DNA of 64,000 nucleotides from Streptomyces ferrugineus. Lineage in GTDB: Bacteria; Actinomycetota; Actinomycetes; Streptomycetales; Streptomycetaceae. Below are positions 37,867-44,646 of this stretch, one piece after another. A program made the position numbers and the translations under genes. The notes under the pieces were generated by a model. It did not search any database and had not been told where the DNA came from. It saw only the letters and a list, made by a program, of their open reading frames with translations. Within the stretch, counting starts at the first letter, position 1. Each line of letters opens with the position of its first letter. The stretch covers positions 3,658,001 through 3,722,000 of the forward strand of contig NZ_CP063373.1 of assembly GCF_015160855.1 (NCBI RefSeq), in the 5' to 3' direction.

Positions 37867-39084
37867 CTACGCCAGTACCTTCTCCAGCGCCCCCAGCGCC
37901 TCCGTCAGCTCCTCCGCGGTGATCGTCAGCGGGGGAGCCAGCCGGATCGTGGAGCCGTGGGTGTCCTTGACCAGGACCCCCTCCCGGAGCAGGCGCTCGC
38001 CGATCTCGCGGCCCGTGCCGGCCTCCGGGTCGATGTCGACGCCCGCCCACAGGCCCCGCGCCCGGAAGCCGACGACGCCCTTGCCCAGCAGCGCCGACAG
38101 GCCGCCCCGCAGGACCACGCCCAGCTCCGCGGCCCGGCGCTGGAACTCGCCCGTCTCCAGCAGTCCGACCACGGCCGTGCCGACCGCCGCGGCCAGCGGG
38201 TTGCCGCCGAACGTCGAGCCGTGCTCGCCCGGCCGCAGGACGCCGAGCACCTCCCGGCGGGCCACCACCGCCGACACCGGCACGATCCCGCCGCCCAGCG
38301 CCTTGCCCAGCAGCAGCACGTCCGGCACGACCGACTCGTGCTCGACGGCGAGCGTACGGCCCGTGCGGCCGAGCCCCGACTGGATCTCGTCCGCCATGAA
38401 CAGGCAGCCCTTGCGGCTGGTCAGCTCCCGCACCCCGGCCAGATAGCCGTGGTCGGGGATGAGGACACCCGCCTCGCCCTGGATCGGCTCCAGCAGCACC
38501 GCCGCCGTCGTCTCGTCGATCGCCGCCTCCAGCGCCGGCAGATCGTTGTACGGCACGATCCGGAAGCCCGGCGTGAAGGGGCCGAAGCCCTGCCGCGCGG
38601 TCTCGTCCGTGGAGAACGACACGATCGTCGTCGTACGGCCGTGGAAGTTCTCGGCCGCCACCACGATCGTCGCCCGGTCCGCCGGGACGCCCTTCACCTC
38701 GTACGCCCACTTGCGGGCCACCTTGATGCCGCTCTCCACGGCCTCGGCGCCCGTGTTCATCGGCAGCACCATGTCCAGGCCGGTCAGCGCCGCGAGCCGC
38801 TCGGCGAACTCCGCGAGCCTGTCGTTGTGGAACGCCCGGGACGTCAGGGTCAGCCGGTCGAGCTGGCTGTGCGCCGCCTCGGTCAGCGCCGGATGGCGGT
38901 GCCCGAAGTTCAGCGCCGAGTAGCCCGCCAGCATGTCGAGGTAGCGGCGGCCCTCCACGTCCTCCACCCAGGTGCCCTCGGCACGTGCGACGACCACGGG
39001 CAGCGGGTGGTAGTTGTGCGCCAGGACCGGTTCCTCGGCGCGGATCAGATCGGTGGACGAACGGGTCTGCGCGGGCGCGGTCAT
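37867..39084 (-). CDS. rocD: ornithine aminotransferase
   Basis: 405 residues, class III PLP enzyme. It converts L-ornithine and 2-oxoglutarate into glutamate semialdehyde and glutamate. VLAHNYHPLPVV (substrate entry), NTGAEAVESGIKVARKW, EPIQGEAGV, DEIQSGLGRTG and the PLP lysine in LLLGKALGGGIVPVSA are ornithine aminotransferase marks. Its ATG overlaps the stop of ddaH (ATGA). With ddaH it forms a short arginine-derivative-to-glutamate route. Confidence 0.95.
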   Translation of the reverse strand: MTAPAQTRSSTDLIRAEEPVLAHNYHPLPVVVARAEGTWVEDVEGRRYLDMLAGYSALNFGHRHPALTEAAHSQLDRLTLTSRAFHNDRLAEFAERLAALTGLDMVLPMNTGAEAVESGIKVARKWAYEVKGVPADRATIVVAAENFHGRTTTIVSFSTDETARQGFGPFTPGFRIVPYNDLPALEAAIDETTAAVLLEPIQGEAGVLIPDHGYLAGVRELTSRKGCLFMADEIQSGLGRTGRTLAVEHESVVPDVLLLGKALGGGIVPVSAVVARREVLGVLRPGEHGSTFGGNPLAAAVGTAVVGLLETGEFQRRAAELGVVLRGGLSALLGKGVVGFRARGLWAGVDIDPEAGTGREIGERLLREGVLVKDTHGSTIRLAPPLTITAEELTEALGALEKVLA

Positions 39085-39893
39085 GAGCGGATCTCCTGGG
39101 TGCAGCACTTGATGCCACCGCCGGCCTTGCGGAACTCCGACAGGTCGACGGGGACGGGGACATAGCCGCGCTCGTCAAGCCGGGCGGCGAGCGCCTCGGC
39201 CTGCGGCGCGATGAAGACATGGCGGCCGTCGGACACGGAGTTCAGGCCGAACGCCGCCGCGTCGTCGCGGGTGGCGAGCACCGCCTCCGGGTACAGCCGC
39301 GCGAGCACCTCACGGCTGCCCGGCGAGAACGCCTCCGGGTAGTAGGCGATGTTGTCGTTATCGAGCACGAACAACGCCGTGTCCAGGTGGTAGAAGTACG
39401 GGTCCACCAGCGTCAGGCTGATCACCGGGTGGCCGAAGAACTCCTGCACCTCGCGGTGCGCGTCCCGGGTGGTGCGGAAACCGGTGCCGGCGAGCACATA
39501 GCGGCCCGTCCAGACCAGGTCGCCCTCGCCCTCGCACACCGACTCGGGCCGGTACACGTCGAAGCCCGCCGTCTTGAACCACGTCTCGTAGTGCGTGGAC
39601 TCCGGGCGGCGCTCGGGCGCGTGGAACAGGGATCCGAAGACGCGGCCGCCGACGACGACCGCCGAGTTCGCGGCGAACACCATGTCGGGGAGACCGGCGA
39701 CCGGCTCCAGGGTGTCGACCGCGTGGTCGTGGGAACGGTAGGCGTGGATCAGCGCCTGCCACTGCTCCTGGGCCAGATCGACGTCCACCCGGACGTCGGG
39801 CTGCATCCAGGGGTTGATCGCGTACTGCACGGCGAAGTGTCTGGGTTCGCAGACGAGGAAGCGCCGCCGGCGCGGCACACGGGTTTCGGGCAC
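39081..39893 (-). CDS. ddaH: dimethylarginine dimethylaminohydrolase-like amidinohydrolase
   Basis: 270 residues of the guanidino-group-modifying (amidinotransferase) superfamily. FVCEPRHF-type LVCEPRHFAVQYAINPWM, DMVFAANSAV, EGEGDLVWTG, the catalytic His in YFYHLDTALFVLD, and the C-terminal nucleophilic Cys in GGGIKCCTQE (two adjacent Cys) are present. It would release citrulline from methylarginine or act on arginine. GTG 39893, preceded by GGAGGAA, is preferred. Coupled to rocD. Confidence 0.87.
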   Translation of the reverse strand: MPETRVPRRRRFLVCEPRHFAVQYAINPWMQPDVRVDVDLAQEQWQALIHAYRSHDHAVDTLEPVAGLPDMVFAANSAVVVGGRVFGSLFHAPERRPESTHYETWFKTAGFDVYRPESVCEGEGDLVWTGRYVLAGTGFRTTRDAHREVQEFFGHPVISLTLVDPYFYHLDTALFVLDNDNIAYYPEAFSPGSREVLARLYPEAVLATRDDAAAFGLNSVSDGRHVFIAPQAEALAARLDERGYVPVPVDLSEFRKAGGGIKCCTQEIRS

Positions 39894-39979
39894 AGAGGGG
39901 TTCCTCCGCTTCCTACGGTGTCGATGAGGATTGAGACCAAGGTAGGAAGCGACGTCGACGAGCGACAAGAAACCAGTAT

Positions 39980-39993
39980 TGCGTGTCCACGCA
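39980..39993. promoter_or_regulatory. Lrp-type operator candidate upstream of ddaH
   Basis: TGCGT-GTCC-ACGCA, perfect 5-bp arms, extended outwards by the imperfect match CAGTATT / GGAATGCTG. It lies 87 nt before the ddaH start and 15 nt beyond the end of the adjacent Lrp-family regulator gene, so regulation of ddaH-rocD by that protein is plausible. Confidence 0.5.
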
Positions 39994-40007
39994 GGAATGC
40001 TGCGTCT

Positions 40008-40520
40008 TCAGGCCGGTCGGCGCACGTGTGCTGCGTCGTTCGGCACGGGCTGGCTGGCGCCCGCCTCGGGGCTCTCCGGGATGAGATGGGACAGCACCAT
40101 CACGCTGATCGTCTTGCGGATGAACGGCTCGACCCGGATGCGCTCCAGCACCTCCTCGAAGTGCTCCACATCCCGCGCCCGCACATGCAGCAGCGCGTCC
40201 GCGCCCCCCGTCACGGTCATCGCCGCCGTGATCTCCGGATGGTTGCGGACCACCTCCGCCAGCCGCCGCGGCGGGGCCGCCCCCTCGCAGTAGACCTCGA
40301 CATACGCCTCCGTACGCCAGCCCAGCGCCGACGGCTTGACCGTGGCCGTGAACCCGGTGATCACCCCGGTGTCGCGCAGCCGGTCCACGCGCCGCTTGAC
40401 CGCCGTCGCCGACAGCCCGACGCTCGTGCCGATCTCGGCGAAACTCGTCCGGGCGTTCGCCATCAGGGCCGTGATGATCTTCCGGTCGAGTTCGTCGAAA
40501 GAGGCCGCGCCGCTGTTCAT
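40008..40520 (-). CDS. Lrp/AsnC-family regulator
   Basis: 170 residues. N-terminal AsnC HTH (FDELDRKIITALMANARTSF, AEIGTSVGLSATAVKRRVDR; about 8-60) and C-terminal RAM effector domain (about 75-150; EAYVEVYCEG, VTGGADALLHVRARD). It is encoded just upstream of ddaH-rocD on the same strand; amino-acid-responsive control of those genes (arginine or ornithine) is likely, with an inverted repeat in between. ATG 40520 gives the conserved start; the frame remains open far upstream. Confidence 0.92.
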   Translation of the reverse strand: MNSGAASFDELDRKIITALMANARTSFAEIGTSVGLSATAVKRRVDRLRDTGVITGFTATVKPSALGWRTEAYVEVYCEGAAPPRRLAEVVRNHPEITAAMTVTGGADALLHVRARDVEHFEEVLERIRVEPFIRKTISVMVLSHLIPESPEAGASQPVPNDAAHVRRPA

Positions 40521-40595
40521 GAGGGCACTGTAAGCGGCACGACACCCAGCGCGAACGTGTACGCAGCCCACATGTCCAGGCGCGCCCATTGCTCT

Positions 40596-40601
40596 TACAC
40601 T
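40596..40601 (+). promoter_or_regulatory. -10 hexamer of the LytTR operon
   Basis: TACACT ends 7 nt before the ATG at 40609, so the first gene of the four-gene operon is probably translated from a leaderless message. No clear -35 is seen, which suits an activator-dependent promoter. Confidence 0.45.
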
Positions 40602-40608
40602 CCCGTTC

Positions 40609-41373
40609 ATGCTGCGCGCCCTGGCTGTCGACGACGAACGCCCCTCGCTGGAGGAGCTGCTGTACCTGCTGAACGCGGACCCGCGCATCGGCAGCGCGGA
40701 GGGCGCCGGCGACGCGACCGAGGCGCTGCGCCGGATCAACCGCGCCCTGGAGTCGGGACCCGACGGCCCGGAGTCGATCGACGTCGTCTTCCTCGACATC
40801 AACATGCCCGGCCTCGACGGCCTGGACCTGGCCCGGCTGCTCACCGGCCTCGCCAAGCCGCCGCTCGTGGTGTTCGTCACCGCCCACGAGGACTTCGCCG
40901 TCCACGCCTTCGACCTCAAGGCCGTCGACTACGTGCTCAAGCCGGTGCGCAAGGAGCGCCTCGCGGAGGCCGTCCGCCGCGTCGTCGAACTGCGTGGCGC
41001 CGAGCCCCGTGACACCGCGCCCCGAATACCCGTGAGCGAACCCGACCCCGACCACATCCCGGTCGAGCTCGGCGGCGTGACCCGCTTCGTCGCCGTCGAC
41101 GACATCACCCACGTCGAGGCCCAGGGCGACTACGCCCGTCTGCACACCGACAGGGGCAGCCACCTCGTCCGCATCCCCCTGTCGACCCTGGAGGAGCGCT
41201 GGCGCTCCCGCGGCTTCGTCCGCATCCACCGCCGCCACCTCGTCGCCCTGCGCCACATCGGCGAGCTCCGCCTGGACGCGGGCACCGTCAGCGTCATGGT
41301 CGGCTCCGAGGAACTCCAGGTCAGCCGCCGACACGCGCGCGAGCTGCGGGACCTGCTCATGAGGAGGCCGTGA
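40609..41373 (+). CDS. LytTR-type response regulator
   Basis: 254 residues. Receiver domain 1-125: acidic pair AVDDERPSL, phosphoacceptor Asp in VVFLDINMPGLDG (about residue 63), the Thr/Lys in FVTAHED and VLKPVRKERL. A LytTR DNA-binding domain follows (about 150-250; VDDITHVEAQGDYARLHT, FVRIHRRHLVAL). First gene of RR - DUF485-like - SSS symporter - histidine kinase, each coupled by a 4-nt overlap. Confidence 0.95.
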   Translation: MLRALAVDDERPSLEELLYLLNADPRIGSAEGAGDATEALRRINRALESGPDGPESIDVVFLDINMPGLDGLDLARLLTGLAKPPLVVFVTAHEDFAVHAFDLKAVDYVLKPVRKERLAEAVRRVVELRGAEPRDTAPRIPVSEPDPDHIPVELGGVTRFVAVDDITHVEAQGDYARLHTDRGSHLVRIPLSTLEERWRSRGFVRIHRRHLVALRHIGELRLDAGTVSVMVGSEELQVSRRHARELRDLLMRRP

Positions 41374-41735
41374 CGATGCCCCAGAGCCCCGCCGAACGCC
41401 GCGTCGTCGTCACCGGCCCGCCCCGGCGCACCCGCCCCGTCTCCGGCTACTACCGCCCCCGCACCGAGATCGACGAGCAGACCACCCTCGGCCACACCTA
41501 CGTCCGCTCCCTGATGCGCACCCAGCTGCGCGCCGGCCTCACCGTGTTCGCGGTCCTCGGCCTGCTCATCGGCCCCCTGCCCCTGCTGTTCGCCGCCATG
41601 CCGGACGCCCGCGGCCTGGTATGGCTGGTCCTCGGCTTCGGCCTCTACGCCCCGCTGGTCCTGCTCGCCCGCTGGTACGTCCGGCGCGCCGAACGCAACG
41701 AGCGGGACTTCGTACGCCTCGTAGAGGACCGATGA
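41370..41735 (+). CDS. DUF485-like small membrane protein
   Basis: 121 residues. A charged N-terminal half (about 1-50) and two membrane helices (about 54-76, 84-103) followed by RRAERNERDFVRLVEDR. Small DUF485 proteins (YjcH, MctB) are co-encoded with acetate/monocarboxylate SSS symporters and may be subunits. It begins at GTG 41370 overlapping the regulator gene; ATG 41376 is an alternative. Ends with an ATGA overlap with the symporter gene. Confidence 0.82.
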   Translation: MTMPQSPAERRVVVTGPPRRTRPVSGYYRPRTEIDEQTTLGHTYVRSLMRTQLRAGLTVFAVLGLLIGPLPLLFAAMPDARGLVWLVLGFGLYAPLVLLARWYVRRAERNERDFVRLVEDR

Positions 41736-43444
41736 ACTCCGGCTACGCCGTCCCCGCCGTCGCCCTGGTCGTCCTCGCGACCGTCCTCGTCGGCGCCTTC
41801 GGCCTGCGCATCTCCCGCACCACCTCCGACTTCTACGTCGCCTCCCGCACCGTCGGCCCCCGCCTCAACGCGGCCGCGATCAGCGGCGAGTACCTCTCCG
41901 CCGCCTCCTTCCTCGGCATCGCGGGCCTGGTCCTCGTCCAGGGCCCCGACATGCTCTGGTACCCGGTCGGCTACACCGCCGGCTACCTGGTCCTGCTGCT
42001 GTTCGTCGCGGCCCCGCTGCGCCGCTCCGGCGCCTACACGCTCCCCGACTTCGCCGAGGCCCGCCTGTCCTCCCAGGCGGTGCGGCGCCTCGCGGGCGCC
42101 TTCGTCGTCGGCACCGGCTGGCTGTATCTGCTGCCCCAGCTCCAGGGCGCCGGACTGACGCTGACCGTGCTGGCCGGCGCGCCCGACTCGCTCGGCGGAG
42201 TGATCGTCGCGGTCGTCGTGGTCGCCATCGTCGCCGCGGGCGGCATGCGCAGCATCACCTTCGTACAGGCCTTCCAGTACTGGCTCAAACTCACCGCCCT
42301 GCTCGTCCCGGCCCTCTTCCTGATCCTCGCCTGGCAGGGCGACGGCGCCCCCCGCCATGCCTTCGACGAACCGGCGACCTTCCGCGAGCAGCGAGTCGTC
42401 CGCGTCGACGACTCCCTCAAGCTCAAGCTCGACCGCCCGCTGTCCGTCACCGTCAGCGGCACGATCGACGGCCGCGACCACGAGGACGACCGGCTCGAAC
42501 TCCCCGCCGGCACCCACCGCATCGAGGCCGGCACCCGCCTGACCTTCGCCGAGGGCGCCGAGGTCCCCGAACGCGACCGCAGCGCCGGCGGCGGACTGTC
42601 CCCGTCGCTGGCCGAGAGCCGCGGCGAACGCCCGCTGTACGCCACGTACGGACTGATCCTCGCCACCTTCCTCGGCACCATGGGTCTGCCGCACGTCGTC
42701 GTGCGCTTCTACACCAGCCCGCACGGCGTCGCCGCCCGCCGCACCACCGTCGCCGTGCTCGGCCTGATCGGCGCCTTCTACCTCCTGCCGCCCGTCTATG
42801 GCGCCCTCGGCCGCCTCTACGCCCCCGAACTCACCCTCACCGGCGACGCGGACGCCGCCGCCCTGCTGCTGCCCGACCGCGTGATCGGCGGCCTGGGCGG
42901 GGACCTGCTCGGCGCGCTGGTCGCGGGCGGCGCCTTCGCCGCGTTCCTGTCCACGGCGTCCGGCCTGACCATGGCCGTCGCGGGCGTGCTCACCCAGGAC
43001 GTGCTCCCCTCGCGCGGCGTACGGCACTTCCGGCTCGGCACCGTCATCGCCATGGCCGTACCGCTCGCAGCGAGCGTCCTGGTCGGCGGGCTGCCCGTCG
43101 CCGACGCGGTGGGCCTCGCCTTCGCGGTGTCGGCGTCCTCCTTCTGCCCGCTGCTCGTCCTCGGCATCTGGTGGCGCCGGCTCACCCCACCGGGCGCCGC
43201 CGCCGGGATGCTGGTGGGCGGCGGCTCCGCACTGCTCGCCGTGGCGGCGACGATGGCCGGCTTCCCGGGGTCCGGCGCGCTGCACGCGCTGCTCGCCTGG
43301 CCCGCGCTCTGGTCGGTGCCGCTGGGCTTCCTCACGATGGTCCTGGTGTCCCTGGCCACCCCGGGCCGGGTGCCGCCCGGCACTGCGGCGATCCTGGCGC
43401 GGTTCCATCTGCCGGAGGAGCTGCGGGCGGAGGTGAAGGCGTGA
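41732..43444 (+). CDS. SSS-family sodium/solute symporter (ActP/MctC-like)
   Basis: 570 residues with about 13 membrane helices. ISGEYLSAASFLGIAGLVLV (about 50) is the acetate/monocarboxylate symporter region, and YWLKLTALLVPALFL and FLSTASGLTMAVAGVLTQDVL (split: LSTASGLTMAVAGVL) match SLC5 sodium-site helices. Between helices, residues about 205-300 form a soluble, charged insert (RVDDSLKLKLDRPLSVTVSG, LELPAGTHRIEAGTRLTFAE) larger than a normal loop. It likely imports a carboxylate such as acetate or pyruvate. Encoded between a response regulator and its kinase. Confidence 0.9.
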   Translation: MNSGYAVPAVALVVLATVLVGAFGLRISRTTSDFYVASRTVGPRLNAAAISGEYLSAASFLGIAGLVLVQGPDMLWYPVGYTAGYLVLLLFVAAPLRRSGAYTLPDFAEARLSSQAVRRLAGAFVVGTGWLYLLPQLQGAGLTLTVLAGAPDSLGGVIVAVVVVAIVAAGGMRSITFVQAFQYWLKLTALLVPALFLILAWQGDGAPRHAFDEPATFREQRVVRVDDSLKLKLDRPLSVTVSGTIDGRDHEDDRLELPAGTHRIEAGTRLTFAEGAEVPERDRSAGGGLSPSLAESRGERPLYATYGLILATFLGTMGLPHVVVRFYTSPHGVAARRTTVAVLGLIGAFYLLPPVYGALGRLYAPELTLTGDADAAALLLPDRVIGGLGGDLLGALVAGGAFAAFLSTASGLTMAVAGVLTQDVLPSRGVRHFRLGTVIAMAVPLAASVLVGGLPVADAVGLAFAVSASSFCPLLVLGIWWRRLTPPGAAAGMLVGGGSALLAVAATMAGFPGSGALHALLAWPALWSVPLGFLTMVLVSLATPGRVPPGTAAILARFHLPEELRAEVKA

Positions 43445-44646
43445 GCGGATTCATCGCGGGCCTGTGCGTGGCGATCCTCCCGCTGCTCGCCGCCGGCTTC
43501 TGGCTCGGCCGGCGCACCGCCCGCCCCGAGACCCTCGGCGACCTCGGCACCCCCGTCGAGCACGCCACCTTCGAGACCCTGCACACCGCCTCGCTCGCCG
43601 CACCCCCGCTGCGGGCCGGCCTCACGGAGGAGACCGCCCGCAGATCGGCCCGTCGGCTGCGCTCACTCCTCGGCACCGACGCGCTGTGCCTGACGGACGA
43701 GAAGGACGTCCTGGTCTGGGACGGGATCGGCGGCCATCACCGCACGGAGATCATGGAACTCCTCGCCGGCCCCCTCGACTCGGGCCGCGGCGAGGCCTTT
43801 CCGCTCACCTGCGACACCCCCGACTGCCCGGTGCGCTGGGCGGTCGTCGCCCCGCTCACCGTCGACGACCGTGTGCACGGCGCCCTCGTCGCCTGCGCGC
43901 CCCGCGAGTCGGCGGTGCTCGTCCGCGCGGCGGGCGAGGTGGCCCGCTGGGTGTCCGTGCAGCTGGAGCTGGCCGACCTGGACCAGTCCCGCACCCGGCT
44001 GATCGAGGCCGAGATCAAGGCGCTGCGGGCCCAGATCTCCCCGCACTTCATCTTCAACTCGCTCGCCGTGATCGCCAGCTTCGTGCGCACCGACCCCGAA
44101 CGCGCCCGTGAACTGCTCCTGGAATTCGCCGACTTCACCCGCTACTCGTTCCGCAAGCACGGCGACTTCACCACCCTGGCCGACGAGCTGCACGCCATCG
44201 ACCACTATCTGGCGCTGGTGCGGGCACGCTTCGGCGACCGCCTCTCCGTCACCCTCCAGATCGCCCCGGAGGTACTGCCGGTCGCCCTGCCCTTCCTGTG
44301 CCTGCAGCCGCTCGTCGAGAACGCCGTCAAGCACGGCCTGGAGGGCAAGGCCGACAAGTGCCACATCCAGATCACCGCACAGGACGCCGGCGCCGAGGCC
44401 CTCGTCGTCATCGAGGACGACGGCGCCGGAATGGATCCCGTCCTGCTGCACCGCATCCTCGCGGGCGAGGTCAGCCCGTCGGGCGGCATCGGCCTGTCGA
44501 ACGTCGACGACCGGCTCCGGCAGGTCTACGGCGACGACTACGGCCTCGTCATCGAGACCGCCCTGGGCGCGGGCATGAAGGTCACCGCCCGGCTGCCGAA
44601 GTACCAGCCGGGCGTGCACTCCGCCGGGCGGCTCACCCGGGAGTGA
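43441..44646 (+). CDS. LytS-type sensor histidine kinase without periplasmic sensor
   Basis: 401 residues. One N-terminal membrane helix (about 3-23), a GAF-like cytoplasmic domain (about 60-180), the His_kinase H-box with the phospho-His in LRAQISPHFIFNSL (about 205) and an HATPase domain (about 280-390; PLVENAVKHGLEG, DDGAGMDP, GIGLSNVDDRL). Unlike LytS/BtsS it lacks the multi-helix 5TMR sensor domain. GTG 43441 overlaps the symporter stop. It should phosphorylate the operon's LytTR regulator. Confidence 0.92.
   Translation: MSGFIAGLCVAILPLLAAGFWLGRRTARPETLGDLGTPVEHATFETLHTASLAAPPLRAGLTEETARRSARRLRSLLGTDALCLTDEKDVLVWDGIGGHHRTEIMELLAGPLDSGRGEAFPLTCDTPDCPVRWAVVAPLTVDDRVHGALVACAPRESAVLVRAAGEVARWVSVQLELADLDQSRTRLIEAEIKALRAQISPHFIFNSLAVIASFVRTDPERARELLLEFADFTRYSFRKHGDFTTLADELHAIDHYLALVRARFGDRLSVTLQIAPEVLPVALPFLCLQPLVENAVKHGLEGKADKCHIQITAQDAGAEALVVIEDDGAGMDPVLLHRILAGEVSPSGGIGLSNVDDRLRQVYGDDYGLVIETALGAGMKVTARLPKYQPGVHSAGRLTRE

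Follow-up and report, generated by a model that had tools for sequence, protein, structure and literature searches.

Two kinds of described system come closest to the locus reported here. CrbS/CrbR (MxtR/ErdR) and CbrA/CbrB rely on SLC5-STAC-histidine kinase fusions, and acs, actP and a gene for a DUF485 protein are reported to belong to the CrbS/R regulon (PMC5715377). In the BtsS/BtsR (and PyrS/PyrR) systems with BtsT in Escherichia coli, a LytS-type GAF kinase and a LytTR regulator are found together with a carboxylate transporter under their control; the accessible parts of the reports describe BtsS as having a 5TMR_LYT membrane receptor and a GAF domain and as binding pyruvate (PMC10653868), and place BtsT in the CstA family (PMC7730263). 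For Actinobacteria, section 14 of one paper describes single polypeptides that combine an SSS domain with HATPase_c, GAF and PP2C parts and states that no SSS-HisKA proteins were seen in Gram-positive bacteria at first analysis (PMC7918813). Here, we analysed a 64,000-nucleotide stretch of Streptomyces ferrugineus (contig NZ_CP063373.1, positions 3,658,001 to 3,722,000; the window), which carries on its plus strand, at 40609-44646, genes for a LytTR response regulator, a small membrane protein, an SLC5 symporter and a LytS-type histidine kinase. We consider it an even chance that these genes encode a conserved actinobacterial four-protein signalling unit in which the symporter would most likely be a co-sensor for the kinase.

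The kinase and the symporter have hardly been separated in evolution. Across 81 Streptomyces genomes, S. ferrugineus included, the kinase was present in 63 (E ≤ 1e-20), the regulator in those same 63 (E ≤ 1e-25), and the symporter passed its cut-off (E ≤ 1e-100) in 60. In the other three, a symporter gene lies beside that of the kinase, the symporter being frameshifted in one (G009) and divergent in two (G036 and G042). All three genes were absent at these cut-offs from 18 of the 81 genomes, three of which are less than 90% complete, and because the symporter cut-off missed the copies in G036 and G042, a divergent symporter is conceivable in these 18 as well. In a survey of 396 genomes across the phylum, for which the best three to four candidates per genome were scored, the symporter was found in 33 (E ≤ 1e-50), each of which also has a kinase match (E ≤ 1e-40) on the same contig; judged by coordinates, the two lie at most 5.3 kb apart in 32 genomes and 18 kb apart in one. 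Kinase matches at 1e-40 occur in 120 of the 396 genomes, 87 of them without a symporter match at 1e-50; the symporter is present in 28 of 28 genomes with a kinase score of at least 395 bits and in 5 of the 92 with weaker ones. Genes that are mere targets of a regulatory system should come and go more readily than is seen in the 81 genomes, which argues against the alternative that the symporter is a regulated transporter only and that the kinase, tethered or soluble, senses an intracellular metabolite or the redox state through its GAF-like domain. We regard this alternative, the main rival to the co-sensor reading, as possible, if tentative, and return to it where other evidence bears on it.

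Pairwise distances between the proteins point in the same direction. Over 25 loci, the distance correlation was 0.956 for kinase and symporter, 0.884 for kinase and regulator and 0.684 for kinase and MctC, a second symporter encoded nearby that served as the neighbour control. The bootstrap difference between the kinase-symporter and kinase-MctC values was 0.255 (0.090-0.422), with the limits that the control is imperfect owing to possible exchange or mis-assignment of MctC in some genomes and that species relatedness was partly removed. MctC is also absent from all 24 Streptomyces loci among the best 80 of 569 loci (24 from Streptomyces and 56 from elsewhere, hereafter the named loci). The partner of the kinase is thus one particular clade of symporters rather than MctC, whose distances follow those of the kinase less closely, a second point that disfavours a kinase listening solely to the cell interior.

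In the window, the regulator (254 amino acids, 40609..41373), the small membrane protein (121 amino acids, 41370..41735), the symporter (570 amino acids, 41732..43444) and the kinase (401 amino acids, 43441..44646) are joined by 4-nucleotide overlaps at three successive junctions (GTGA, ATGA and GTGA, respectively), as the coordinates and the sequence confirm; GTGA is not rare in high-GC genes, and the overlap counts given below stand without a chance rate. Symporter and kinase are separate frames, with stop and start overlapping at 43441-43444. The first-pass annotation had described the genes as locked together by the three overlaps and the symporter as inserted between the two halves of a LytSR-type pair. 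In 59 of 63 loci taken from 62 further Streptomyces genomes, the first of the four genes met upstream of the kinase is that of the symporter, and in 49 of these 59 the symporter stop overlaps by four nucleotides with a start codon in frame with the kinase. The regulator/small protein overlap was found in 8 of 49 loci and the small protein/symporter overlap in 19 of 50, and the set of three is therefore not conserved. A relative of the small protein was detected by tblastn in 51 of the 63 loci. Four Streptomyces loci (L100-L103) have the kinase first. Genome G003 carries the system twice (L099 and L100), once in either arrangement.

The 24 named Streptomyces loci show the order regulator-small protein-symporter-kinase where they are complete, and the 56 named loci from elsewhere show kinase-regulator-small protein-symporter wherever all four genes lie in the flank. 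The symporter is absent from the flank in 10 of the 56; of 11 genomes checked (those 10 and the one holding L172), nine contain a symporter, and the two without it (L145 and L149) are represented by contigs of metagenome-assembled genomes. No regulator was found in the flank of three of the 56 loci (L136, L152 and L167) in a search that covered the flank and not the genomes. A tree of 90 kinases, which used all named non-Streptomyces rows, thinned Streptomyces to about a third and counted loci without a symporter in the flank as kinase-first, contains one order change and limits the symporter-kinase order to one Streptomyces clade (support 100/100). The position between two halves therefore fails as a general rule, with the kinase adjoining the regulator and the symporter following outside this clade. 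Because the kinase-first order is more widely spread, the window order probably did not arise by insertion of the symporter into a LytSR pair but by relocation of the kinase, in Streptomyces, to a position behind the symporter. Two distant actinobacteria outside the tree (G111 and G125) carry a 38-39% identical symporter directly before a kinase of the LytS type, and the symporter-kinase order may therefore have had more than one origin.

The kinase-symporter link survives this change of gene order. Chance reshuffling of the operon in Streptomyces, which would leave symporter and kinase functionally unconnected, would agree with the single change on the kinase tree that the window order needs and with two of the three overlaps not being conserved, but the same genes cluster in another order across Actinomycetota and their co-occurrence has few exceptions; we consider shuffling alone very improbable. 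The order outside Streptomyces is also the ordinary layout of a regulatory pair followed by its target, which is what a kinase reading an internal signal and controlling a transporter would lead one to expect.

The kinase and the LytTR regulator are well supported as a cognate pair. Profile searches of the 9.96-Mb genome returned a single LytTR match and a single PF06580 match, both at the operon, and the two are therefore a pair by exclusion; a kinase-regulator fusion among the related proteins (P0004) reads clean and backs this pairing. Such fusions, of about 618 residues, are P0004, P0005 and P0017 among the matches listed, the last with an out-of-frame stretch inside. SLC5 paralogues are several in the genome, with 12 SSF matches, two of which are pieces of the operon symporter. 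Two longer candidates for fusions were rejected: P0024, an apparent kinase-regulator-symporter protein of 1161 amino acids, is an artefact with long stretches read out of frame, and the 1368-codon open frame at L084 in G009 holds symporter pieces in two frames, the mark of a one-base frameshift. At that locus the symporter is frameshifted near residue 460 and the kinase and regulator matches are continuous, which reflects sequencing error or decay.

The regulator matches Response_reg (PF00072) and LytTR (PF04397) above the Pfam cut-offs, and its best NCBIfam score is to the BtsR model (145 bits, under the cut-off of 246). The kinase matches His_kinase (PF06580) and HATPase_c (PF02518) above the cut-offs, and its ISPHF motif contains His202 (44044..44046), invariant in 38 aligned kinases, which is the predicted phosphorylation site by analogy with the family. 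In an AlphaFold2 model of the kinase, a single N-terminal helix (residues 2-26) is followed by an alpha/beta domain of the GAF type and a kinase core that resembles GanS; the comparison of this model with the PDB falls mostly over residues 190-390, short of the GAF-like domain. By hhalign, residues 58-392 align with residues 219-557 of E. coli BtsS (100%, 323 columns, 33% identity). The aligned part of BtsS covers the GAF domain between the membrane part and the DHp domain, and by this comparison the window kinase has a GAF-like input domain at residues 58-153 (43612..43899). Pfam matched neither 5TMR nor GAF in the kinase, a related protein (P0024) scores 20.6 bits for GAF, below the cut-off, and no extracytoplasmic domain was seen by Pfam, in the model or in the alignments. 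The proposed architecture of one helix, a GAF-like domain and no 5TMR sensor was accordingly confirmed.

The N-terminal helix is usually present in related kinases and absent, depending on the start codons chosen, from those of Nocardioides, Kribbella, Blastococcus and three Streptomyces loci; because it is missing in some relatives, it would serve as an anchor and not as a sensor. The GAF-like domain contains GHH and C-x4-C motifs that are similar to motifs of BtsS (C-x5-C in BtsS) and may have a metal or redox role. The alignment with BtsS, these shared motifs and the helix-less kinases all favour a signal read inside the cell. On the other side, neither motif was detected in Arthrobacter-type kinases, and some other kinases likewise yielded no cysteine pair.

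The symporter matches SSF (PF00474) above the Pfam cut-off, and Foldseek hits to CHT1, SGLT (SGLT2), NIS, SiaT and vSGLT assign it the SLC5 fold. It falls under every NCBIfam cut-off, with the VC_2705 family as best match (TIGR03648, 241 bits against 320.75), and is not a member of the MctC family (NF058657, 195.6 bits against 670). Ser407-Thr408 (42950..42955) align with the Ser-Thr pair of PutP, which we take to be part of the Na2 site, and ActP and MctC have Ala-Val at this position. Because the pair is kept, sodium coupling is plausible. A transport-dead sensor that had lost its ion site was considered and is not supported, the pair being intact; a kept Na2-type pair is equally what a symporter acting as regulated transporter would have. 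The small protein, described at first as DUF485-like and here a putative small subunit of the symporter, scores 16.8 bits against DUF485 (PF04341), short of the cut-off of 28, and that assignment is weakly supported.

A soluble insert of about 95 residues in the symporter, also claimed at the outset, is borne out by alignment, model and topology at residues about 204-301 (42341..42634). In a model of moderate quality (mean predicted local distance difference test score of 66.8), it has a beta-rich core near residues 221-272 with fair to good confidence. Judged by length, the insert is absent from 20 of 61 Streptomyces orthologues with the same kind of partner kinase, 12 of the 20 showing a gap in the alignment; two of the 63 rows were dropped from this count (L084 as frameshifted and L101 as mis-measured). 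The charge of the flanking loops, together with what we assume to be the usual SLC5 topology, predicts that the insert is extracytoplasmic. Because it is missing from a third of orthologues and predicted outside the membrane, the insert is not the contact to the cytosolic kinase, and we rejected it as a signalling domain.

Genes adjoining the operon in other genera point to the nature of the substrate. An MctC-like second symporter is found in 26 of the 56 named non-Streptomyces loci and a second small protein in 26 of 56; the MctC proteins scanned pass NF058657 (three of three), and the second small proteins scanned are true DUF485 proteins (two of two). An Acs label was given by tblastn in 8 of the 56 loci, and of three ligases scanned, those of L147 and L150 pass TIGR02188 (acetate--CoA ligase) and that of L140 fits another acyl-CoA ligase better. 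This setting of MctC, DUF485 and Acs resembles the acs-yjcH-actP cluster of E. coli. In the genome of the window, mctC-like genes and acs are located elsewhere, away from the operon. The MctC neighbours and some acetate--CoA ligase neighbours point to acetate or related acids, and we infer that the substrate is acetate or a related monocarboxylate.

The symporter with its small partner is genetically well supported as a dedicated membrane partner of the kinase and regulator. A more far-reaching reading, to which we assign a probability of about 0.4, is a two-protein receptor: a LytS-type kinase lacking the 5TMR receptor of its relatives would depend on the SLC5 symporter as its obligate sensor in the membrane, a split equivalent of CrbS in Gram-positives for acetate or related acids. 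In the preferred co-sensor reading, the symporter would bind or turn over acetate or a related monocarboxylate, the signal would be relayed to the kinase within the membrane or at its inner face, and the kinase would phosphorylate the LytTR regulator and so turn on uptake and activation genes; in function, the whole unit would be a split version of a CrbS-type SLC5-kinase. Because of the strict co-inheritance and the kinase/symporter overlap in Streptomyces, contact between the two proteins appears to be the most economical account. A soil-bacterial transporter for small organic acids thus probably helps to tell the cell which food is outside. The same genetic evidence would fit a symporter that acts as a negative co-sensor, holding the kinase off when idle and releasing it upon flux (or the reverse), with a kinase that is constitutive without the symporter. 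Negative wiring is known for other transporter-kinase pairs, such as DctA with DctB; for this locus we think it unlikely.

Several observations weigh against the symporter as a co-sensor. Over 129 loci, the distance correlations of the kinase with symporter and regulator are equal (0.911 and 0.910), and within Streptomyces (84 loci) the regulator follows the kinase more closely than the symporter does (0.938 against 0.871). Outside Streptomyces (45 loci), the kinase-symporter and kinase-regulator values are 0.877 and 0.699, with some regulator and symporter entries being matched stretches, which may lower the values there. Symporter and kinase are kilobases apart in loci of Micromonosporaceae and Pseudonocardiaceae, which means that the two are not co-translated everywhere. 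Among the 120 of 187 matches listed (from the 7992 scored candidates that share most words), no clean fusion of symporter and kinase was seen, and a rare one is conceivable. A two-component system beside its target transporter is ordinary, the GAF-like domain could read an internal signal, and with its Na2-type pair intact the symporter may simply transport. The available passages on the fused systems further report that a Pseudomonas fluorescens chimera indicated signalling independent of substrate transport and that CbrA needs its SLC5 and kinase parts to be physically coupled (PMC5715377), and a split form would therefore require another way of coupling.

Upstream of the operon, 34 aligned upstream regions from close relatives show a conserved promoter for the regulator, with a probable -10 element, TACACT, at 40596..40601 of the plus strand and, near -35 at 40569-40579, a CACATGTCCAG-like block that varies more. 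TACACT ends 7 nucleotides before the regulator ATG, which implies a leaderless transcript, and repeats were seen by eye near -35 to -52. In a number of Streptomyces species among the loci listed, a second promoter-like element was recognized by eye before the small protein gene, where a TACACTCC pattern occurs; with this element of their own, the three genes from small protein to kinase can act as a unit separate from the regulator gene, which would agree with the symporter as partner of the kinase. On the minus strand, 37867-40523 carries a divergent gene for an Lrp/AsnC-type regulator (PF13404/PF01037) and genes that read as amidinohydrolase-like and aminotransferase-like. Genes of these three kinds also flank the operon in close relatives (L041-L058), in a setting that resembles the SCO1221-SCO1222 neighbourhood of Streptomyces coelicolor.

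In the parts of the S. coelicolor literature available, SCO1217 is listed as an orphan kinase and SCO1220 as an orphan LytTR regulator in a 2022 review (PMC9739842), SCO1218 as a transmembrane transport protein (PMC5537264) and SCO1222 as an arginine-stimulated amidinotransferase (PMC3293853), and a shift with ArgR is unclear or absent for the SCO1220-SCO1221 region (PMC5537264 / PMC3293853). The numbering from SCO1217 to SCO1220 leaves two genes between, matching the window order, and names and numbering in these excerpts suggest that SCO1217 and SCO1220 are the counterparts of the window kinase and regulator. For both, a partner and a likely nutrient class are thereby suggested. Literature searches, judged by titles, abstracts and passages of open-licence papers, turned up no account of the four-gene unit.

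Compared with known systems, the operon shares with CrbS/CrbR and CbrA/CbrB an SLC5 module tied to a histidine kinase, and differs in having the two as separate proteins, with a kinase of the PF06580 type and a LytTR regulator; no STAC match was obtained with Pfam in the operon proteins, the presence of a STAC model in Pfam not having been checked. The first-pass annotation had likened the unit to a split CbrA. Because related clusters adjoin MctC and, in a few cases, acetate--CoA ligase genes, of the kind that CrbS/R controls, and DUF485 genes as well, the comparison with SLC5-kinases is apt, and by analogy the acetate system CrbS is a nearer parallel than CbrA. Since CbrA and CrbS are fusions, sensing and signalling are hard to take apart in them; in Streptomyces, which are easy to handle, each part has a gene of its own, so whether transport or binding drives the kinase is directly testable. 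The SSS-HATPase_c-GAF-PP2C proteins are likewise actinobacterial signalling proteins with an SSS part, and differ, by their description in the excerpts, as single chains with PP2C. MctC and ActP with their DUF485 partner belong to the same superfamily and have a small membrane protein gene just upstream, and true MctC and DUF485 genes adjoin related clusters in many genera, but the window symporter keeps the Ser-Thr pair and is the symporter that tracks the kinase. With BtsS/BtsR the operon has in common the LytS-type GAF kinase, the LytTR regulator and the carboxylate transporter, whereas the window kinase and its relatives have one helix or nothing in place of 5TMR_LYT and the transporter is of the SLC5 and not the CstA family. 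Overall, the nearest functional analogue is CrbS, the kinase and the regulator find their nearest named sequence relatives in the BtsS/BtsR type, and the operon is a member of neither group.

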